Origin: Chitinivibrionales bacterium
Lineage (GTDB): Bacteria; Fibrobacterota; Chitinivibrionia; Chitinivibrionales; JANQEN01
Direction: 5' to 3'
Assembly (NCBI GenBank): GCA_028278335.1
Contig: JANQEN010000217.1
Coordinates: 1 to 64,000 of the forward strand
Length of the DNA: 64,000 nucleotides
In this document: positions 21,128 through 37,120 of the stretch, one piece after another
Layout: the number at the start of each line of letters is the position of its first letter
How positions within the stretch are numbered: the first letter of the stretch is position 1
Notes under the pieces: model-generated
Seen by the model: only the letters and a program-made list of their open reading frames with translations
What the model was told of the DNA's origin: nothing
Databases searched by the model: none
Position numbers and translations under genes: made by a program

Positions 21128-22921
21128 CTAAGGTCCAGCTTTTCTCACCACGCGGAAGCCACAATCCGCATAGGAATTACTTTCAGAAAGATGTCGCCAA
21201 GAACTGGTGCAGAGCTTTTTAAAGTTTAGGTAACTGCCACCGCGAAGCACATGTTTTAAACCAAAGTCAATTCCTGTTGGGTTAATAGCAAGGCCACTCT
21301 GTAGACTTTGCATATAGTAAAGCGAGAGTGTGTCCGCTGTGGTGGTGTCACTTTTATCATTACACCACTCCATGATATTTCCCGAAAGGGCATAGAAACC
21401 ATTAATTGTTGGCGGGGTGGTAACAACTTTCAATACAGAAGAACCTTGACCGGTATTATGGTTGAACTGTGTTTCAACACTGTTGTATCCCCAAGGATAC
21501 CGTCGCTTCCGGCTCCAATTGTTTAAGTATGATCCTGATTGAGCATACTCATACTCTGCTTCAGTTGGTAGACGATAGCCAGATTTTGCAAAGTCGCAGA
21601 CAAGGCTGTCGTTGTAACAGGACTCCTTTGAGTCAATAGTTGAGAGATAGTTGCAGAACCGAGCTGCTCCAACCCAATACACACCAGCTGTAGGTAAGTT
21701 TAAAGATGTTACTCTACATTTATACAGGCTATCAAGAGTGTCGCGATAGATTGGTTGACCAGGTATTCTAAGATTGATAAGCGTATCCACAAGCGAATCG
21801 GGTGCTCTTTTAAGGAGCACCTTTTCAATGGTGTCGGTAGTTGAATCCACATACAGGTGGATAGCCAATGTGTCAAGGGAGTTGAGAAACGCTACATATT
21901 GACTGTTAGAAATCTCCTGTCTTCCCAGATAAAAGGAGGAGAGAAATACCTCATGAACTGGTTTTCCCGGACCATTGACTTGTCCTCTTGTTGTTTGTTT
22001 ATCTTGCCATATATCGCCCATAGCAAAGAGTCCACCTCGAATACCGAGCAATTCGTAATTACTACTTGTCGCTATAGAGATCGGTGGCATGGTGTCAAAG
22101 GTTGATAGGTAGGCATGGGGAAGTACAAAGGTGCTGTCATATCCTCCTAAACTGTCAAGTGTTGTTGGGTCGCTATAGATCCAGGTCGAACAGGGATAGG
22201 GTGCGCCTTTGCTCACACGAGCTGTTGTGGATATACTGATCTTATAAGCACGGTTCTTTTGTGCCGGTATAAGGGCGACCGAGTCAGTAGCAGCTGCGGA
22301 TAAAGAGTCGATGGTAGTGCCAACTGAATCTCTAAGAAATATCAGGTAGGAGAGGACCTCTAAGCTGTCATAGGGGTACCAACTGACCATCGCATTGAAC
22401 CCATCGTAGGAGATACTTTTAAGCTTAGGAGGTTTTGGCTGCCATAAACGGGCTGGCTGGTAGATGTTGGGGCGGTTGCTATAGAGGGTGTCCGTAACAG
22501 CACCACTGGTTGGATCAACCAGAATTTTAAAGGCTGCATAGTTGACCCAATAGGTTTGGTTTATGGTAAGTCCCTCAAAGATGTAAGTGGTGTCTTTTGT
22601 GATAAAGACATCGATGTAATTCTGGGCCCCATCATAGAGATAGATAAGGTACTTAATCGTGTCTGGTGATGTGTGAGCAACCGGGGACCACTGTGCACGA
22701 AATCGACCGGAAAGAGTGGAATCTGCTCCAGTATCAATAATGCGCACCGAGTCAACCCGCAGGTTTGTTGGTGCAGAAATAGTGTCCGGCACAGGATCTG
22801 GCGGAATATCAGGAAAATCATCTTCGGTACAGAAGAAGTAGGTTGCAGCAAGTGCCAGCAATAACCAGAGAGGGAGTAATTTTTTAATCATTGTTTGTGT
22901 ATTGTATTGAGGATCTGTCAT
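21128..22921 (-). CDS. Lipoprotein with Fn3-like repeats and FGE-sulfatase domain
   Basis: Lipobox-like ATYFCTED; Fn3-like segments; YRLPTEAEYEYAQSG, ALSGNIMEWCND, LRGGSYLN, CGFRVVRKA. Confidence 0.8.
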   Translation of the reverse strand: MTDPQYNTQTMIKKLLPLWLLLALAATYFFCTEDDFPDIPPDPVPDTISAPTNLRVDSVRIIDTGADSTLSGRFRAQWSPVAHTSPDTIKYLIYLYDGAQNYIDVFITKDTTYIFEGLTINQTYWVNYAAFKILVDPTSGAVTDTLYSNRPNIYQPARLWQPKPPKLKSISYDGFNAMVSWYPYDSLEVLSYLIFLRDSVGTTIDSLSAAATDSVALIPAQKNRAYKISISTTARVSKGAPYPCSTWIYSDPTTLDSLGGYDSTFVLPHAYLSTFDTMPPISIATSSNYELLGIRGGLFAMGDIWQDKQTTRGQVNGPGKPVHEVFLSSFYLGRQEISNSQYVAFLNSLDTLAIHLYVDSTTDTIEKVLLKRAPDSLVDTLINLRIPGQPIYRDTLDSLYKCRVTSLNLPTAGVYWVGAARFCNYLSTIDSKESCYNDSLVCDFAKSGYRLPTEAEYEYAQSGSYLNNWSRKRRYPWGYNSVETQFNHNTGQGSSVLKVVTTPPTINGFYALSGNIMEWCNDKSDTTTADTLSLYYMQSLQSGLAINPTGIDFGLKHVLRGGSYLNFKKLCTSSWRHLSESNSYADCGFRVVRKAGP

Positions 22922-23299: not shown

Positions 23300-24247
23300 T
23301 TAGTTCTCTTTTAATAACGACTCTTTTGCCTTTTCAATACCTTGGAGGTTGTTGATGTTGAATACCGGGGTAGAGCGGGCAAAGCCATTGACGCGAATCA
23401 AACCGGAGAGGACACGACCTGGGCCAATTTCAAAGAAGGTGTCTATTTCCATAGCTTTACAGGTTTCCATACACTCACGCCAAAATACAGGACTGGTGAG
23501 TTGATAGGTAACAAGATGCTTTATAGTTGTCGGGTGCTTTTCTGGCTTGGTGGTTGCATTGAGGATCAGGGTTGTGTGTGGTTTGTTGAATGTTTTTAAA
23601 TCAATCCAGGATTCAAAGGCTTCCCGAGCTGATGTAATAAAGTGGCTGTGCCAAGGGCCGGAGACCACAATTTCCCGGCATTTGCCCCGCTCCTCCTGCT
23701 TGACACGCTGAACAAAGCGGTCAAGGGTATCTCTACTCCCAGAGAGCACGATTTGATTCGGTGCGTTATCATTGGCAAGAGAGATATGGTCAGGTTCGTT
23801 TAACTCATCGAGGATCTCCTCGACCCGTTCAAGCGGTACAAAGAGGACCGCCATCATTGTGCCATCACAGCGACTGGCTGCCTCATCCATATGTTTTCCC
23901 CGAAAGGCGGCCATAGTTATGGCCATGCGATCATCCACCACACCAGCAGCAGCAAGAGCGGTTATCTCTCCTAAGGAGTGTCCCATCACCACATCAGCTC
24001 TAATGTCGGCCTCGCGTAGATGTCGATGGTACCCAAGGGAAACCGCACAGAGTAAGGGCTGTAGATATTGTGCCTTTAATAGCTCCTTTTCAGGACCCCG
24101 TAAACAGAGCTGTTCCAAATCCTTTTGGGTGTACTCGCTGGCATAGGCAATCAACTCCCGAAAGTAATTATCCGTTTTAAAGAGATCCTTGGCCATGCCG
24201 ATCTCCTGTGAGCCTTGTCCTGGGAAAAGAAATGCTATTTTTGCCAT
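23300..24247 (-). CDS. fabD: Malonyl-CoA:ACP transacylase
   Basis: FLFPGQGSQEIGM, GHSLGEITALAAAG, FFEIGPGRVLSGL; ATG at 24247 preferred over the upstream-extended ORF. Confidence 0.9.
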   Translation of the reverse strand: MAKIAFLFPGQGSQEIGMAKDLFKTDNYFRELIAYASEYTQKDLEQLCLRGPEKELLKAQYLQPLLCAVSLGYHRHLREADIRADVVMGHSLGEITALAAAGVVDDRMAITMAAFRGKHMDEAASRCDGTMMAVLFVPLERVEEILDELNEPDHISLANDNAPNQIVLSGSRDTLDRFVQRVKQEERGKCREIVVSGPWHSHFITSAREAFESWIDLKTFNKPHTTLILNATTKPEKHPTTIKHLVTYQLTSPVFWRECMETCKAMEIDTFFEIGPGRVLSGLIRVNGFARSTPVFNINNLQGIEKAKESLLKEN

Positions 24248-24260
24248 GTAATGATCTTTC

Positions 24261-24998
24261 TTAAGAAACGGTGGCTGTAAGACCACCATCAACGATAATT
24301 TCTTGGCCTACAACATAGGAGGCCTGGTCCGAGGCTAAAAAGGTTACCACCTTTGCAACCTCCTCTGGCGTGCCAAAGCGCTTGAGCAAAATACGCTCTT
24401 TATTATCCCGCTTTACTTGCCTGGGCATGACTGCTGTCATGTCCGTATCAATAAAGCCTGGTACCACCGCATTGACCCGTATTCCCTTGGGGCCAAATTC
24501 TGCAGCAAGGGCACGGGTAAAGGCCAAGAGTGCACCCTTTGATGCGGCATAGTTTGTTTGACCACCCACGCCAATTAGACCAGCAATAGAGGCCACATTG
24601 ACGATGGCCCCTTTCTGTGCAGTTAACATGGGACGACTTACCGCTCTAACCCAGCGAAAGACGCCATTAATGTTGGTGTCTAATACTTTATCCCACTCTT
24701 CAAAGGGCATCAACATGAGAAACATGTCTGCGGTTATGCCAGCGTTGTTTATCAACACATCAATGGTATTTGCTTCATTAAGGATTGCGCTAAGCGTGGT
24801 GTCAATAGCTTTGGGGTCCCTCTGAGAGCATTTAAAAGCGGTGGCATCACACTCCTTCGCCAAGGAACGTGCCTCTTCTTCATGGTTGTTGAAAGTAAAA
24901 TAGACTCGATCACCGGCAGCACAAAATTCCTTAACAATAGCCCGACCGATACCGCGGGACCCTCCGGTGACAATGATATTTCTTTTTGTTGATTCCAT
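24261..24998 (-). CDS. fabG: 3-oxoacyl-ACP reductase
   Basis: VTGGSRGIGRAI, NNAGIT, YAASKGALLAFTRALA, SDQASYVVGQEIIVDGG. Confidence 0.9.
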   Translation of the reverse strand: MESTKRNIIVTGGSRGIGRAIVKEFCAAGDRVYFTFNNHEEEARSLAKECDATAFKCSQRDPKAIDTTLSAILNEANTIDVLINNAGITADMFLMLMPFEEWDKVLDTNINGVFRWVRAVSRPMLTAQKGAIVNVASIAGLIGVGGQTNYAASKGALLAFTRALAAEFGPKGIRVNAVVPGFIDTDMTAVMPRQVKRDNKERILLKRFGTPEEVAKVVTFLASDQASYVVGQEIIVDGGLTATVS

Positions 24999-25006
24999 AG
25001 AGTGGT

Positions 25007-26113
25007 TTAGAGCTCGTCCAGTTTGACACTCAAGCTTTTAGGCATGATTGGTGGCATTGAAATGGTTGTAACCTGATCATCCGACCCTTCAACAGTAAAT
25101 GTTAAGCCGGCATAGGCAAGATCAACAGAAAAGAGGGCCAGCCCAATTTTTCGATTAAGAATAGGAGAATAACAGACAGCCTCCACTGTGGCAACAGATT
25201 TGCCTTCATACATAATATGTGCTCCTTCAGTAAAGGAGTCACAATCACCAAGAGCACTGACACCAATTATCTTTTTTGTCAATCCCTCTTCACGTCGCTT
25301 TTGTATTGCCTCTTGACCGATATAGGAGTCCTTGTCAAAATCGATCATCCATTGGAGCCCTAAAGAGAGAGGGTCCTTTACGTGCATACCTTCGGCAAAG
25401 ATATTAAAGAAGCGTCCCTCTAAACGGAGATCGTTATGAATAGCAACACCACAGAGACCACCCTTATGTTTTTTTGCAGCCTCTAAAAGGGTGGAAAAAA
25501 GTTTCTCTCCCAGCTCTTTGGGGGCCATAATCAGGTAGCCAAACTCCGAGGTTTTGCCAGCCCGAAATAGATGAATTTCTGTGTCCTCAAAGGGATACAT
25601 CTCAATAGAGAGATAGGGAAGACCCAATACATCAGTCCCAAAAACTTCCTTGGCAACACTCCAAGCTTTAAAGCCATCTATACTTATGACAATCTGCTCA
25701 TCAGTAACATTTTTACACTCTGCTTCAGCAGCACCCTGTGAATCTAAAATTTGTTGAAGAGTAGCATCGTCAACAATGCTTTCACAGAGAAGCACATACT
25801 CTTCATCATTATTGGCGATAAAACAGTCTGCTACTATCTGCCCATCGTCATTGGCTAAAAAGGTATGTAAGACTCTGCCAAAACGGGTTTTTGCCACATT
25901 TCCAGCCACAAGTCCGTCTAAAAAGTCCAATGCTGTTTCTTCTGGAATCACATACTTTTGCATAAAGGAGAAGTCTGTGATGCCAACAGAGTCTCGTATA
26001 TATCCATACTCTTTATCATTATCATGGGTGAGTAAAGGAATTTCGATGCCGAAACGATCACCAAAGGTGACGTTGTTCGCTTCTAAGTTATTTTTTAAGG
26101 GTACTGTTCTCAT
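25007..26113 (-). CDS. GcvT-like folate-dependent aminomethyltransferase family protein (orphan)
   Basis: FGDRFGIEIPL, VGITDFSFMQKY, LRLEGRFFNIFAEGM, DPLSLGLQWMIDFDKDSYIGQEAI. No other glycine-cleavage genes in the window. Confidence 0.75.
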   Translation of the reverse strand: MRTVPLKNNLEANNVTFGDRFGIEIPLLTHDNDKEYGYIRDSVGITDFSFMQKYVIPEETALDFLDGLVAGNVAKTRFGRVLHTFLANDDGQIVADCFIANNDEEYVLLCESIVDDATLQQILDSQGAAEAECKNVTDEQIVISIDGFKAWSVAKEVFGTDVLGLPYLSIEMYPFEDTEIHLFRAGKTSEFGYLIMAPKELGEKLFSTLLEAAKKHKGGLCGVAIHNDLRLEGRFFNIFAEGMHVKDPLSLGLQWMIDFDKDSYIGQEAIQKRREEGLTKKIIGVSALGDCDSFTEGAHIMYEGKSVATVEAVCYSPILNRKIGLALFSVDLAYAGLTFTVEGSDDQVTTISMPPIMPKSLSVKLDEL

Positions 26114-26406
26114 GCTGCTTCCCCCTGTTTATCTTGCTCTGAGATAATAAAATCAACAATTGTGTTGATTGAACGAAGCACAGAGGTATTGTTGTCGGGG
26201 ATTTTGATGTTAAAGGCATTTTCAACACAGAGTACAATCTCTAAAACGTCCAATGAGTCTAATCCAAGTCCCGCTCCAATGAGGGAGACATCTTCGTGGA
26301 GATCCTCTGCAGTATAAGGAAGGTTGAGACGGTTGATCAGATCCTCTTTAAAGGTCGTGATTACCGCTTTTCGTCTTTCAATGATCCGTTGTATATCTTC
26401 TGGCAT
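26110..26406 (-). CDS. Acyl carrier protein
   Basis: GAGLGLDSLDVLEIVLCVENAFNIKIPD (4'-phosphopantetheine Ser in DSL). Confidence 0.9.
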   Translation of the reverse strand: MPEDIQRIIERRKAVITTFKEDLINRLNLPYTAEDLHEDVSLIGAGLGLDSLDVLEIVLCVENAFNIKIPDNNTSVLRSINTIVDFIISEQDKQGEAA

Positions 26407-26475: not shown

Positions 26476-29400
26476 TTAATCCCTGCAATCCAAATCTAAG
26501 CGTAAGATCGCGGCGAAATTGTACCCCACATCGGTGGTGCTAAGGCATAGGATTGTTTTGGGGGGCTCATTCGAATTGCGCGTATCAATCTGCTCTAAAC
26601 CAGAGATTTGTGGCCACAGTTGGAATTTCTTTTTTAGTGATTCTAAGGTAGCTGCAAGGCTAACGAGAATTGATGCACTCTCAATATAGCCCGTGTTGAA
26701 GGTGGTGGTGATCAAGGGGATCTGCCCTGCCTGTGATCCTAAAAGAGCGTTTACTGCCTTGAAATATTTGCAATCCTGTTTATTGCCCTGTGGTGCCCAG
26801 ACAATGCAATCAATCTCCTCTGAATTGAGATGTGCTCTTTTGAGGGCTTTTGTGCAGGCCTGTTGCAGTCCTGAGGAATCCATTTGCTGCTCAGTAAAGA
26901 GCCCACCATCCATGCTCATACCATAACCCAACACCTCGGCGAGTATTGATGCATTACGTTCTTTAGCAGCAGAGAGTGTCTCCAGAACAAGCATTGATGC
27001 CCCTTCGCCAAGAACCTTTGCTTTGGGGTTTTCCGTACGGAGGCAGTATTCTCTCTCCTCTTCATGTTGGTAAAGAAAACCCATAAGATCGTAATTGGAA
27101 TAGGTCTGGGCATATACTTCGTCTGCTCCGCCAACGAGCAGCGCTTTAGCCCGCTTATCTGAAAGAAAGTCATAGGCATAGGCAAGAGCCTGAAGACCTG
27201 CGTGTGGTCCTGGGGCAAGAGTCATGCTTACACCTTTCAGGCAAAGCGCATTAGAGACCCATCCTGCTGTAGAGTTGGCTGTTATATTGGAGAAGCTGTT
27301 AATATCTGCCGTATACGTATCACTTGAAAAAACTGCATCCATGTGGCCGCTTTCGCAAGGGCCATTGCAGACTCCCAGTACAATGCCCACCTCTTCGGCG
27401 TTGCGTCGGTTCACCCGCAGGTTTGCGTCCATAAGCGCTACTCGTGCTGCCACCGTAGCATACTGACTAATGGGATTCATTCCGGAAAGGTCCAGGCGTC
27501 TGTCAATAGCCTTCACATCGATTGGGTCAACCAAACCAGCCAATTTCGACGTTACTTGGGAAAGACCGAGTCGTTCTACGGAATGTAACCCTTGCTTTTT
27601 TTCTAAAAGATGAGTAACCAGTGTATCTGTGCCAACACCCAGGGAGGTGACACAACCGGTGCCGGTAATAACAACCCGTTCATACTCTCGATCCCGAGGC
27701 TTTAGTTCTCTATCCCATTGGGTTATGGCAACAGCTGCGTTGTTTCCTCCAAAGGCATAGTTGGCAGAGAGGAATGCTTTATAGGAGAGACTACGATGTG
27801 TGTTGGGTACATAGTCTAATGTGCAGCCTGGTCTGGGTTCCGAAAAGTTAAGGGTTGGTGGAACAAATTCTTTGTTCATGGCAAGTATGGCACAGGTGGC
27901 TTCCAATATTCCAGTGCTTCCCATACAGTGCCCAAAAAAGGATTTTGTTGACACAACAGGGATGTTTTTGTCACCAATGAGCTTGGCAATTCCCCGACTC
28001 TCAGCACGATCATTGGCTTCGGTGCCTGTGCCATGGGCATTAATGCAGCCAATATCCTCTAAGTCAAGCTTAGAATCAGCTAGTGCATTTTGTAGTGTGC
28101 GCAAAGAGCCATCACCTCGCGGATCCGGTGCTGTTGGGTGGTATGCATCAGAGGTGGTGGCGTGACCTGCTATTTTTGCATGACAGCGAGCATGGCGTAC
28201 CAAAGCATGTTCCATCTCTTCTACAACCCAAAAGGCTGCGGCTTCACCAATATTAAGACCAATGGGGGTTGAGAAGGGTGCTGTCTGACTCTTTGAGGTT
28301 GCTTTCAGTGCGTCAAATCCGGACATGTTGGCTACACAGAGTGAGTCTGAGCCACCAACTAACACCACATCATAATAACCGCGGGAGATAAGCATGTGAG
28401 CAATACCCATAGCCCCGGTTGTAGCAGAGCAGGCTGTGGTGGCAACCCATACATCACCACCAATCCCCAATACTTGGGCCAGTGCTTTGCCAAAACCATA
28501 GTATTGGGCTTGAAGGTTCATCTTTTCATTAAAAGCTTTTGATGATTTTCCATGCTTCCACTTATACTCATCCTCTGCAGAAAGAAGTCCACCATTACAG
28601 GTTCCTAAGACTAAGGCGACTTGAGGTTTCACTTTTTTTTGATCAAAGGAAAGGTGGGCATCTTCCAAAGCCTTGCGTGCAGCTGCAATGGCATAGTGAA
28701 GATAGGGGTCATCAAATTGCTCCAGCTCCTCTTGAGATAAATAGTCCATTGCTGTAAAATCAGTAATCTCCCCACCAATGGTTGTACGAAAGTTGGTGGT
28801 GTCAAATTTTGTGATTTGCTTAAGTCCATGCGCTCCCTTTGCAAGGGCATGCTCAATTGTGGAAAGATCGTTTCCTAAAGGGCTAATTGCACCCATACCA
28901 GTGATAACTGCTTGACCACGCACACCTTTTCGCTGTAGGGGTATGCCAACAATTTTTTTTCCCTTTTCATAGGTGAGTGGTTCAAAGGCACTGGCATGTC
29001 GATCCTTTTTCATGGCAAAAAACTCTTTCCACACTTTTAAGAACTGTTCGTTTAATTGGTCTACACTCATATTCGGATGAGTTGCTACTACATGGGCGCC
29101 ATTATAGTGACTCCAATTTTTATCAATAATTCGATTCTGTCGTTCCAGACGTTCCCAATGTTTGGTGCCTGGGTAGGGCGTGAAGAGAAAAAACTCGGAG
29201 GTGTGAATATTCGCTTTTACATACAATTCCAATACGCGCTCAGCAATACTGGTATCATCCCAATCGCGACCAATTGCAAAGGAGCCAAAGAAACGAATGC
29301 CCCTATCTTCTAAGGACTTCACCAAATCACTGAGGAATTGCTGCTCCTTTTTACTACCCTGTATGGCTCGGATAGATACAGGATCTACGTTCATAGTGCA

Positions 29401-30234
29401 GTAAAAGTTTGCGATACCCGCCTTTGCCGCAAGATCTAAAAACTTTTTATCCGTATTCAGTGCCAAGGTTGATGAGACAAAGTACTTTTTTTTAAGGGGG
29501 ATCAGCTCTTTAAAAAGCTTTTTTGTATAGTCGATAATTTTTCTTTTTGGAAAGAAGAAGACATCGTCTGCTAAATAGACATTTTCATATTTAAGAGATT
29601 TGATCTCCTCGACTACCTGCTCAATTGGCCGGAATCGGATCCGATGTCCCATGTGTGGTGGAATGGCACACATGGCGCACTCATAGGAACAGCCACGGGT
29701 GATTTGAACAAGGTCCTCCTCCCAGGTGTAGGAGTCTTTATTGTAGAAGAGGTCCCGCCGGGGAAGGCGCATTTTAGCAAGATCAAAGGTTGATCCACCC
29801 CTATAAATTTTCTGAAGCTCACCCTTTTTCGTATCCTCAATGATTGTTTCCCAAGTTGGTTCTACTTCGCCAATATTGACTGCATCAGCATGTTTAAGAC
29901 ACTCATCAACCATAAAGGAGGGAAAAAATCCCCCCATGATAACCTTGGTTCCGTTGGCGCGATAGTTGTCAGCAATTTCAAAGGCTCGGGTTGCTTGGGG
30001 AGTAAAGCAGTTTATCGCAACAAGATCAGTTGGAGCACTAAAGTCGATAGGGTCTCCACTATTGTCATCTATAAGCTCAATCTCGATATCCGGTGGTGTC
30101 CAGGAAGCCATAATAGGGATACCAAGAGATGGTGGGGTTGTGAAGTCTCCTAAAAAATAATCCACCAGCCCCTTATCAAGTTCAGTGTTGGAGAGGAATT
30201 TTTCAAACCGGGGGTATACAAACGTAATTTTCAC
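26476..30234 (-). CDS. Fusion: radical SAM (B12-binding-type N-terminus) + ketosynthase + degenerate ketosynthase (CLF-like)
   Basis: Residues ~1-435: RGCSYECAMC (CxxxCxxC). Residues ~441-850: KS with TTACSATTG, NAHGTGTEANDR, FFGHCMGSTG. Residues ~857-1252: KS fold (VVITGTGCVTSLG) lacking the catalytic residues. Confidence 0.88.
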   Translation of the reverse strand: MKITFVYPRFEKFLSNTELDKGLVDYFLGDFTTPPSLGIPIMASWTPPDIEIELIDDNSGDPIDFSAPTDLVAINCFTPQATRAFEIADNYRANGTKVIMGGFFPSFMVDECLKHADAVNIGEVEPTWETIIEDTKKGELQKIYRGGSTFDLAKMRLPRRDLFYNKDSYTWEEDLVQITRGCSYECAMCAIPPHMGHRIRFRPIEQVVEEIKSLKYENVYLADDVFFFPKRKIIDYTKKLFKELIPLKKKYFVSSTLALNTDKKFLDLAAKAGIANFYCTMNVDPVSIRAIQGSKKEQQFLSDLVKSLEDRGIRFFGSFAIGRDWDDTSIAERVLELYVKANIHTSEFFLFTPYPGTKHWERLERQNRIIDKNWSHYNGAHVVATHPNMSVDQLNEQFLKVWKEFFAMKKDRHASAFEPLTYEKGKKIVGIPLQRKGVRGQAVITGMGAISPLGNDLSTIEHALAKGAHGLKQITKFDTTNFRTTIGGEITDFTAMDYLSQEELEQFDDPYLHYAIAAARKALEDAHLSFDQKKVKPQVALVLGTCNGGLLSAEDEYKWKHGKSSKAFNEKMNLQAQYYGFGKALAQVLGIGGDVWVATTACSATTGAMGIAHMLISRGYYDVVLVGGSDSLCVANMSGFDALKATSKSQTAPFSTPIGLNIGEAAAFWVVEEMEHALVRHARCHAKIAGHATTSDAYHPTAPDPRGDGSLRTLQNALADSKLDLEDIGCINAHGTGTEANDRAESRGIAKLIGDKNIPVVSTKSFFGHCMGSTGILEATCAILAMNKEFVPPTLNFSEPRPGCTLDYVPNTHRSLSYKAFLSANYAFGGNNAAVAITQWDRELKPRDREYERVVITGTGCVTSLGVGTDTLVTHLLEKKQGLHSVERLGLSQVTSKLAGLVDPIDVKAIDRRLDLSGMNPISQYATVAARVALMDANLRVNRRNAEEVGIVLGVCNGPCESGHMDAVFSSDTYTADINSFSNITANSTAGWVSNALCLKGVSMTLAPGPHAGLQALAYAYDFLSDKRAKALLVGGADEVYAQTYSNYDLMGFLYQHEEEREYCLRTENPKAKVLGEGASMLVLETLSAAKERNASILAEVLGYGMSMDGGLFTEQQMDSSGLQQACTKALKRAHLNSEEIDCIVWAPQGNKQDCKYFKAVNALLGSQAGQIPLITTTFNTGYIESASILVSLAATLESLKKKFQLWPQISGLEQIDTRNSNEPPKTILCLSTTDVGYNFAAILRLDLDCRD

Positions 30235-30534
30235 AATACCATCTCAGCTTTACAATGTTTGATTTATTTGGCTATTTTCTGTTGTTTTAAAGAATGATTC
30301 TTTTGATGATTTCTTCTCCTAGTTTGACCTCATCTTTTACGATTAAAATCAATAAAAATTCAACGACAAAGAAATCTCAAAATGATAAAATATAATTACG
30401 TTATAATAAGGTAGTAAAATTCGTAATTTAACCTTTTAAATGCGAGGAAAATAATATTAATTTATATATCTTTTAATCGATTACGGATTTTTTCATCCTG
30501 ATTTTGCAGAACCCTTTTGCATGCTAAGGTACTC

Positions 30535-31947
30535 ATGAAAATTACAATTTCAGAACAAGCGCAGTATTCTACTCAAATAGTTTTTATCTTTGAAGGGAGC
30601 AAACCTTCGATTGTCGATTTTGAGGGCAAGAAAGAGGAGATCTCAGTTCGTTATAATAATGAAAATACCAAGATATATTGCGGACTGGGCCCTAAAAAGA
30701 ACTGTACTGATGAAATTGTTCGATCTGCAGCTGGTGTGGCTATTCGAAAGGGTGCTGACTTAAAGCGTAGTGAACTCTCTGTGATTGTGCCTGTTTTAAA
30801 GAGAAAAGGCGTCCGTGCTGCTCAAGCTGCAGTAGAGGGAATTCTATTGGGCTCCTATACCTTCACTAAGTATAAATCGGATAACAAAACTTCTATAAAA
30901 AAGGTAGAGGTTGTAACAAAGGATCTCTCCTTAAGTGCGGTAAAAGCACTGGCAAAAATAAAGGAGGGGGTCTTTTTAACACGCGATTTAGTGAATGATA
31001 ATGCCAGTGTTATAACGCCACAAAAGCTTGCCGAAGAAGCGAAAAAGATAGCCGCAAAAAATAAACAACTCTCCTGCACAATTCTTTCTGAGAAGGAGAT
31101 TGACAAAAAGGGCTTGGGTCTTTTGAAAGCGGTTGGCCAGGGCGCGCCCTATCCTCCTCGCTTGATCATTCTTCAGTACAAGGGGAATGCCAAATCAAAA
31201 GAAACAACTGCAATTGTGGGAAAGGGAATTACCTTTGACTCCGGCGGATTAAACCTAAAACCATCGGGCTATATTGAGACAATGCGCACTGATATGGCCG
31301 GTGCTGCTGCAGTTTTGGGGACTATGAAAACCATAGCTGCTTTAAAGCCTTCGATCAATGTGATTGGTGTTGTTGCTGCAGCCTATAATGCCAATGATGG
31401 AGACTCCTACTTTCCTGGTGATATATACACCTCCTATTCCGGCAAAACAGTAGAGATTCATAACACCGATGCCGAGGGGCGATTAGTGCTCGCCGATGCT
31501 ATCTCCTATTGTATTAAAAATTATAAACCAACAGAGATTGTTGACTTGGCAACCTTGACTGGTGCCATAGTGATCGCCCTTGGTGATATGGCAGCTGGTC
31601 TGTTCTCCAATAATGATTCTGTGGCAGAAAAATTAGCAAAGGCTGGAGACGCTTGCAATGAAAAACTCTGGCGCATGCCCCTTAGTGAGGTGCACTCTGA
31701 TTCAATGAAGGGTGAGTTGGCTGATCTTCGAAACATGTCTAAACTACCAAAGCGGCATGCCGGCTCAAGTGCGGCAGCTGCTTTTTTAATGGCCTTTGTG
31801 GAAGATACTTCCTGGGCACACCTTGATATTGCTGGTGTTGCCTTTAATGATCGAGAAAGTCGTGGGGAAACGCCAAAGTTTGCCACCGGATTTGGTGTTC
31901 GATTACTCCTTACCTATCTATTAGGTAAGTCCTTTGGCTTGGCATAA
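30535..31947 (+). CDS. pepA: Leucyl aminopeptidase (M17)
   Basis: VGKGITFDSGGLNLKPSGYIETMRTDMAGAAAVLGT; NTDAEGRLVLADA. ATG at 30535 preferred. Confidence 0.92.
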   Translation: MKITISEQAQYSTQIVFIFEGSKPSIVDFEGKKEEISVRYNNENTKIYCGLGPKKNCTDEIVRSAAGVAIRKGADLKRSELSVIVPVLKRKGVRAAQAAVEGILLGSYTFTKYKSDNKTSIKKVEVVTKDLSLSAVKALAKIKEGVFLTRDLVNDNASVITPQKLAEEAKKIAAKNKQLSCTILSEKEIDKKGLGLLKAVGQGAPYPPRLIILQYKGNAKSKETTAIVGKGITFDSGGLNLKPSGYIETMRTDMAGAAAVLGTMKTIAALKPSINVIGVVAAAYNANDGDSYFPGDIYTSYSGKTVEIHNTDAEGRLVLADAISYCIKNYKPTEIVDLATLTGAIVIALGDMAAGLFSNNDSVAEKLAKAGDACNEKLWRMPLSEVHSDSMKGELADLRNMSKLPKRHAGSSAAAAFLMAFVEDTSWAHLDIAGVAFNDRESRGETPKFATGFGVRLLLTYLLGKSFGLA

Positions 31948-35959: not shown

Positions 35960-37120
35960 TTACATAAGGTGTCGCAATGCCCAGACCAGCTTGGGAAATT
36001 TTCCCAGGCAGGTTCTGAATATCTTAGACATGGTTAATTGGTCCTGAGGAATTGCAGCAAGTGCCTGAGCACCTCGGTTATACTCCACATCAGAGACATT
36101 AAGCAGAGAATTTTTTACCTTTGCCAATTTAAAATGGCTTGATCCAAGTTTTTTATGCCAAGCCTTTTCATAGGAGTCGGCCAGCTTTGCCATCTCTTTT
36201 TCTGAATATGCATTAACCATTGAAACAGCAAATTGTGCAGCCAGGGTTCCCGATTTCATAGCCTCAGATATTCCAGCCCGGGAGATGGGATTTACCGTAC
36301 TCACCGCGTCACCGGCTTTTATGAGTCGTTTGAAGGCAATGGGTGAACGCTGTTTAAAACAGGGTATAGAGCCGCCATAGGCCCCGACAATGTTGCCCTT
36401 AGGGAAGTGTCGCTTGAGGAAGGTGTCCAGTAGTTTTTTAATGTTAACCTTGCTGCGAAGTGTTGTGCCAACTAATACACCGGCGTTGACGCTCTCCTTG
36501 TTTCGAGGAAAGGCCCAGGCATACCCACCAGGTGCTAGTTCTTCGCCGACATAGAGGTGCACTGTGTCGGTCTCCGCTCTAACACCTTCCACATGAGCAA
36601 AGTAGGCGGCTTCAAGGTCCTTTGGTTTTGAACTAATGGGCTCGTCATGACCAATACGTGAGAGTGGTCCAGAGCAATCCATGACAACCCGCGCCTCGAT
36701 GCTTTTGCCATCATCCAGAAGAAGTGTTCTTGTATCTGAGGGCTCTGATACAGAAACAACAGAGTGGTTAAAGAGACCAGTGGCTCCCAATTCCAAGCAC
36801 TCATCAGCCAGATCGTGCTGCATCAGGGCTCGGTCAATTATGTACCCCTTATTATTATCAGTGTAGGTAATTGCTGTGTTGTCAGGGGCATGCAGAGTAA
36901 GATTGCTTACCACCGAGCGGATCCAGGAAAGTTTTGGCTCTAAAACTTCATGAAACCCAAGTTTGCCCACCCCCTCTGCACAGGGGATCCGCTTGTTTTT
37001 ATCGGTGCTCTTTTCAATAAGAATCACAGAAAGAGGTTTATGATGGATGAGGATATTCCGGGCTGCGCAAAGTCCTGCAGGTCCAGCACCAATGATCGCA
37101 ATGTCATAAATTGTACCCAT
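35960..37120 (-). CDS. Geranylgeranyl reductase family FAD-dependent oxidoreductase
   Basis: IIGAGPAGLCAARNI; CAEGVG; GGYAWAFPRNKESVNAGVLVG; GDAVSTVNPISRAGISEAMKSG. Confidence 0.82.
   Translation of the reverse strand: MGTIYDIAIIGAGPAGLCAARNILIHHKPLSVILIEKSTDKNKRIPCAEGVGKLGFHEVLEPKLSWIRSVVSNLTLHAPDNTAITYTDNNKGYIIDRALMQHDLADECLELGATGLFNHSVVSVSEPSDTRTLLLDDGKSIEARVVMDCSGPLSRIGHDEPISSKPKDLEAAYFAHVEGVRAETDTVHLYVGEELAPGGYAWAFPRNKESVNAGVLVGTTLRSKVNIKKLLDTFLKRHFPKGNIVGAYGGSIPCFKQRSPIAFKRLIKAGDAVSTVNPISRAGISEAMKSGTLAAQFAVSMVNAYSEKEMAKLADSYEKAWHKKLGSSHFKLAKVKNSLLNVSDVEYNRGAQALAAIPQDQLTMSKIFRTCLGKFPKLVWALRHLM

Follow-up and report, generated by a model that had tools for sequence, protein, structure and literature searches.

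What does a radical S-adenosylmethionine (SAM) enzyme do when it is built into the same polypeptide as a ketosynthase? The question is raised by a gene at positions 26476–30234, minus strand, of contig JANQEN010000217.1 (assembly GCA_028278335.1) from a Chitinivibrionales bacterium of the phylum Fibrobacterota. Positions 1–64,000 of this contig were analysed, and the whole 64,000-nucleotide stretch is called the window here. The encoded 1252-aa protein joins a radical SAM (rSAM) unit to a ketosynthase (KS) and to a degenerate KS that resembles a chain length factor (CLF). We give a probability of roughly 60% to the reading that this fusion and its partners are the core of a type II polyketide- or fatty-acid-like lipid pathway, with the rSAM enzyme built into the chain-elongating KS-CLF. 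A literature search, which did not extend to subscription papers or preprints, found neither a described rSAM-KS fusion nor a system combining GcvT, rSAM and polyketide genes, in agreement with an earlier note on this DNA, which knew of no characterised system with this exact fusion. The fusion is a real and conserved multidomain architecture, apparently undescribed, in what we read as a type II polyketide synthase (PKS) or fatty acid synthase (FAS) lipid pathway that combines radical and folate-type components.

Architecture of the fusion gene

The translation, from a GTG start, is free of stops. Pfam recognises Radical_SAM at residues 177–285, over its cut-off, and two KS units; NCBIfam recognises fabF (1e-143), with its best stretch at residues 442–837. 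According to Pfam and an AlphaFold2 model, the N-terminal rSAM unit (residues 1–425; 28960–30234, minus strand, as for all the domains and motifs of the fusion) consists of a cobalamin-binding-like Rossmann domain and a radical SAM barrel. Its CX3CX2C [4Fe-4S]/SAM motif (C182-C186-C189; 29668–29691) is invariant in 22 aligned fusions and 33 aligned relatives. The catalytic KS domain (residues 439–842; 27709–28920) carries Cys602, His734 and His769, and this triad, like the rSAM cysteines, is kept in 22/22 aligned fusions (a contig end truncates one of them). In alignments of the fusions no other third of the protein is as well conserved as the rSAM unit, and for this reason the unit is probably active.

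The second KS (residues 850–1252; 26479–27687), delimited by Pfam and alignments, has lost its catalytic residues. In the window protein the Cys is replaced by Pro1008 and the His loops by WAPQGNxQD and NTGYIES. Among the 22 aligned copies the Cys is never present (Pro in most, Asn in two), and both catalytic His are gone, with an invariant WAPQGNxQD loop instead; this domain is therefore a CLF-like partner. As judged by motif only, the protein thus holds the pair of active KS and inactive CLF that marks highly reducing type II PKSs. The earlier note had described one uninterrupted minus-strand frame holding an rSAM domain, a complete KS and a second, degenerate KS; the domain profiles, the invariant motifs and full-length copies in independent assemblies bear this out, and the domain junctions that it placed at about 28914 and 27690 are correct within about 20 bases.

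Distribution in other genomes

The search for the same architecture in other genomes, which had been proposed as a check, found the whole fusion at 54–70% identity in 17 of the 168 Fibrobacterota genomes (that of the window counted), one copy being cut by a contig end. The carriers belong to 13 of the 41 genera, every one within the order of the window. Outside this phylum, the three-part protein occurs at full length, within the same range of identity, in four Omnitrophota metagenome-assembled genomes (MAGs) and in one Victivallales MAG; in a wider draw, 1/384 Omnitrophota genomes had the fusion, and of 198 genomes of the Victivallales class a single one had it in full. In the tree, the rSAM domains from Omnitrophota fall within those of Fibrobacterota, beside the branch of the window itself (support 96/89), which suggests horizontal transfer.

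Could the long frame be an assembly or annotation artefact that joins separate genes? The KS-CLF part does occur as a separate 813-aa gene without the rSAM domain in one Victivallales-class genome (locus L062, 8790–11231), next to retained ACP, GcvT-like and ketoreductase genes. However, the KS of this gene nests within the fusion clade, so that it represents a derived loss and not the ancestral separate form, and no close rSAM was found in that genome, where the best is 25% identical. Full-length copies are present in more than 20 assemblies from three phyla, and the same fusion lies on 15 contigs of independent assemblies; chance and a chimeric contig are therefore excluded. The 1252-aa fusion is confirmed as real, and the artefact retains a negligible probability.

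Genes beside the fusion

On the same strand, 3′ of the fusion, the gene at 26110–26406 encodes an acyl carrier protein (ACP; 98 aa, Pfam PP-binding) with the phosphopantetheine serine Ser51 in GLDSLD; that at 25007–26113 encodes a GcvT-like protein of folate-binding fold (368 aa), recognised by Pfam GCV_T, alignments and fold match; that at 24261–24998 encodes a FabG-type ketoreductase (KR; 245 aa) with the short-chain dehydrogenase motif YAASK; and that at 23300–24292 encodes a FabD-type malonyl-ACP acyltransferase (AT) with GHSLGE, whose true start is probably at about 24247. The KR and the AT were assigned by profile matches.

In the relatives the order is fusion, ACP, GcvT, KR and AT, with an optional second KS-CLF after the fusion and an optional 4HBT thioesterase after GcvT. 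The genes for FabZ, a flavoprotein of the FMN reductase type with an SCP2 domain, and PlsC flank this cluster or sit on another contig. In many relatives, as in L033:10391-12703 and L034:7078-9360, the gene immediately after the fusion is this second KS-CLF (760–777 aa; KS motifs intact); no member of that family was found in the genome of the window, where the best other KS is 36% identical to that of the fusion. No enoyl reductase was recognised in the cluster. The surroundings of the fusion in the window have no aromatic-starter genes (ammonia lyase, AMP ligase); a gene resembling an ammonia lyase adjoins the cluster only in L041, L043 and L044, and lies near the distal operon in L086.

The earlier interpretation placed a KS/CLF-like pair in a type II PKS or FAS context, and both architecture and context are supported; it missed the pairing of the GcvT-like protein with the ACP, the distal operon of PlsC, FabZ and flavoprotein, and the second KS-CLF of the relatives.

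Beyond the cluster, many relatives share with the window a divergent leucyl aminopeptidase gene (30517–31947) that precedes the fusion. A FGE-sulfatase/GldK-like protein is encoded downstream of the cluster (21128–22921) and was not seen in the fusion clusters of relatives. A geranylgeranyl-reductase-like FAD protein (35960–37120), about 6 kb upstream of the fusion start, lies outside the conserved set.

The GcvT-like protein

The start of the GcvT-like gene and the end of the ACP gene share 4 bases. Co-occurrence was counted in the genome of the window and 40 relatives, 17 with the fusion and 24 without. The GcvT family (at least 47% identity) is present in 15/17 fusion genomes and in 0/24 others (Fisher p about 2e-9, uncorrected for phylogeny); in both fusion genomes that lack it, the fusion stands at a contig end. 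A model of the protein (pLDDT, the predicted local distance difference test, of 92.3) gave template modelling (TM) scores of 0.89/0.91 to the Thermotoga maritima T-protein. D96 aligns with the residue that we take to be the catalytic Asp of the T-protein, and E190 with its presumed pterin-contacting Glu; both are invariant in 15 relatives. The NCBIfam GcvT score, 119.6 bits, is below the cut-off of 235.9, and another GcvT-like gene of the same genome, on contig C234, is 22% identical to that of the cluster. Since it lies in a PKS operon, overlaps the ACP gene and scores below the GcvT cut-offs, the protein does not appear to be part of a glycine cleavage system with P and H proteins. Its coupling to the ACP suggests, by analogy, that the ACP arm stands in for the lipoyl arm that the H-protein provides in glycine cleavage.

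The protein could instead be a helper of the YgfZ/IBA57 type that keeps the Fe-S cluster of the rSAM enzyme intact and carries out no one-carbon chemistry. Both types share one fold superfamily, and, according to PMC10002905, the rSAM enzyme RimO needs YgfZ. We consider this highly unlikely: the model is far nearer to the T-protein than to YgfZ (TM 0.64/0.72) or IBA57 (about 0.57), the KGCYxGQE motif is absent from the family alignment, and the Asp and Glu named above are kept. In addition, the gene is retained in L062 although the fused rSAM is lost, a persistence that ties the GcvT-like protein to the ACP/KS side.

The distal operon

The genome of the window carries an operon in the order PlsC, FabZ and flavoprotein on another contig (C169; L077), the flavoprotein having a C-terminal SCP2 domain. 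With FabZ there and KR and ACP in the window, the KR, dehydratase (DH) and ACP set of highly reducing type II PKSs is complete. Above 38% identity, the flavoprotein is found in 16 of the 17 fusion genomes and in none of the 24 others (Fisher p about 2e-10, uncorrected for phylogeny). A 34% relative, in a PlsC-FabZ operon of similar make-up, is encoded in one genome in which no fusion was detected (G004). CX2CX2CX7C is invariant in the flavoproteins of the fusion genomes, and we take it to resemble the cluster motif of iron-sulfur flavoproteins.

Fold of the radical SAM unit

The AlphaFold2 model of the rSAM unit, built from 33 relatives, has a pLDDT of 92.1. Its closest solved fold is AprD4 (6fd2; TM 0.76/0.73), a rSAM diol dehydratase known to work without B12. 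The earlier note had called the unit a B12-binding-type domain. A Pfam B12-binding match does exist at residues 70–129; its 26.2 bits are below the cut-off of 32.1. With this match under its cut-off and AprD4 the best fold, we lean towards an enzyme that uses no cobalamin.

If cobalamin were used, the enzyme could C-methylate the growing chain as a methylase of the HpnR/TsrM/CysS class, and the product would be an ordinary branched or polyene lipid. Besides the weak B12 match, partial NCBIfam matches to HpnR and HpnJ are consistent with such a role, as is the presence of MgmA, TsrM, CysS, TokK and OxsB among the fold matches, two of which, CysS and TokK, were solved with pantetheine-type substrates. 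These cobalamin enzymes reach query-normalised TM scores of 0.55–0.62, a wide margin behind AprD4. The methylase is doubtful on this evidence.

Proposed pathway

From the observed architecture, the intact KS and rSAM motifs, the gene set and the co-occurrence, we propose the following reactions, order and product. The AT would load malonate onto the ACP. Condensation onto the growing chain would follow, carried out by the KS domain of the fusion with the CLF holding it as a pseudo-partner. The KR, and the FabZ encoded elsewhere in the genome, would reduce and then dehydrate the chain, which is expected to remain unsaturated and polyene-like because no enoyl reductase was recognised. The fused rSAM would then generate a 5′-deoxyadenosyl radical and take a hydrogen from the chain while it is bound to the KS or the ACP, triggering C-C bond formation, cyclisation or a similar change. 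Electrons may be supplied to the rSAM by the co-occurring flavoprotein, with its cysteine motif and lipid-binding SCP2 domain. The GcvT-like protein and the ACP would work as GcvT and H-protein do, with a one-carbon unit passed between folate and the chain on the ACP, and the PlsC-type acyltransferase would finally place the chain into a lipid. The product is best read as a radically modified, probably unsaturated acyl lipid.

Several points weigh against this proposal. The operon on C169 is unlinked to the fusion here; it is assigned to the pathway because of its co-occurrence with the fusion and because relatives have these genes next to the cluster. The chain could also be reduced by a general enoyl reductase encoded elsewhere in the genome, and would then not be polyene-like. 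One lineage dispenses with the rSAM step, since L062 keeps KS-CLF, ACP, GcvT and KR without it. Biochemistry or lipid data were found for no member of the family.

A bolder version can also be formulated, in which the ACP replaces the H-protein, the GcvT-type enzyme gives a folate one-carbon unit to the chain, and the rSAM fused to KS-CLF makes a carbocycle (cyclopropane, cyclobutane or bridged) during elongation. No PKS or FAS is known to us that turns a folate one-carbon unit into a carbocycle on an ACP-bound chain, and we consider this version rather unlikely.

The building of strained or polycyclic lipids by anaerobic bacteria is an open question, and radical chemistry is suspected, though not proven, to give rise to ladderanes and other exotic lipids. 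Candidate ladderane rSAM enzymes were undetected on expression in Escherichia coli, and no new fatty acids appeared (PMC4790861). Because the rSAM is here covalently tied to its KS-CLF and the operon is compact, fewer substrate carriers come into question, and whether the enzyme acts on a chain bound to the ACP or the KS can be tested directly. The pairing of a GcvT-like protein with the ACP would bring folate one-carbon chemistry into carrier-protein assembly lines.

Relation to ladderane-type clusters

The link to ladderane clusters raised in the earlier note is supported by the nearest relatives of the rSAM. The rSAMs of the fusions form a clade (100/99) whose sister group comprises standalone rSAMs encoded beside KS-CLF and KR genes or fused to CrtI-like oxidoreductases. 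Such CrtI-rSAM fusions were observed at L056:11483-14281 and L076:6099-8108, the L056 copy beside KS and CLF genes. By sequence, the fusion is related to ladderane-type clusters but is not a member: it scores 56.9 bits against TIGR04072, with a cut-off of 360, and direct filing as a ladderane rSAM was rejected on this score.

An alternative to be weighed here is that the pathway is homologous to the Kuenenia/Desulfotalea candidate clusters and makes ladderane-type (polycyclobutane) lipids or polyunsaturated hydrocarbons, the rSAM carrying out the cyclisation cascade. The sister clade, accompanied by KS-CLF, KR, FabZ and CrtI-like oxidoreductases, is consistent with it, and so is an Omnitrophota KS/CLF cluster (L066) in which a weak relative of the rSAM (31–35%) stands directly upstream of a true TIGR04072 rSAM (626 bits). 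Moreover, the CLF domain of the fusion is a KS copy without the canonical active-site residues, as in ladderane-type clusters, for which a parts list was given by Rattray et al. (PMC2649909), and PMC9902471 reports antiSMASH 'ladderane' clusters in MAGs of Fibrobacterota, Omnitrophota and Verrucomicrobiota. On the other hand, the fusion reaches only 57 of 360 bits; no CrtI/phytoene-desaturase-like gene was found in the window cluster, the linked operon or the gene sets around the fusion, nor a tandem rSAM pair in those gene sets; the word 'aminomethyl' does not occur in the text of PMC2649909; and ladderane lipids are associated with anammox bacteria only. A pathway of this kind is, in our judgement, quite unlikely.

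True TIGR04072 genes were observed in other settings as well. The ladderane-like cluster of L066 (G169:C51:38000-57000) also has genes for an HpnR-like rSAM, an MMPL-like transporter, an acyltransferase and an AMP-ligase. In Victivallales L063 (G171:C303:15000-34000), the contig that bears the rSAM-KS-CLF fusion of that genome also encodes, about 20 kb from it, a TIGR04072 rSAM (540 bits), a further rSAM and a CrtI-like oxidoreductase, together with KS genes. In the genome of the window, contig C130 (L070:11412-12779) carries a true TIGR04072 rSAM (420 bits) beside an HpnJ-like rSAM; its surroundings are type VI secretion system, MscS and IMP dehydrogenase genes, not lipid genes.

Comparison with known systems

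The best solved fold, AprD4, shares 17% identity with the rSAM unit; it acts on an aminoglycoside (paromamine) and is not fused to a KS. In the swf clusters of sponge symbionts an rSAM gene also adjoins a polyketide/fatty-acid synthase, but this is a type I PKS with a separate rSAM (PMC3908369). These clusters were rejected as a precedent for an aminomethyltransferase with an rSAM, since the aminomethyltransferases on that fosmid lie outside the swf operon (PMC3908369).

The cispentacin pair AmcF-AmcG likewise combines a KS with a degenerate partner and forms a ring on an ACP, and it indicates that a pseudo-KS partner can assist cyclisation (PMC10698177). The KS, ACP and FabZ of the fusion set are weakly similar, below curated cut-offs, to AmcF, AmcB and AmcE; no rSAM is mentioned in PMC10698177.

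The highly reducing type II PKSs (the KS-CLFs of aryl polyene, flexirubin and ishigamide) share KS-CLF, ACP, KR, FabZ-type DH and acyltransferase with the present set, and the clusters of L041, L043 and L044 adjoin an ammonia-lyase-like, MMPL and acyltransferase gene set. The cluster of the window differs from them in its lack of aromatic-starter genes, in the fusion of KS, CLF and rSAM, and in its GcvT-like partner.

The clusters proposed for Kuenenia stuttgartiensis and Desulfotalea psychrophila (PMC2649909) also combine type II FAS genes, rSAM and KS copies without active-site residues, and relatives of the fusion rSAM occur in clusters of that kind. In contrast to these, the rSAM described here is fused to KS-CLF, is not of the TIGR04072 family and is without a CrtI-like gene, and it is accompanied by a GcvT-like protein and a flavoprotein with an SCP2 domain.

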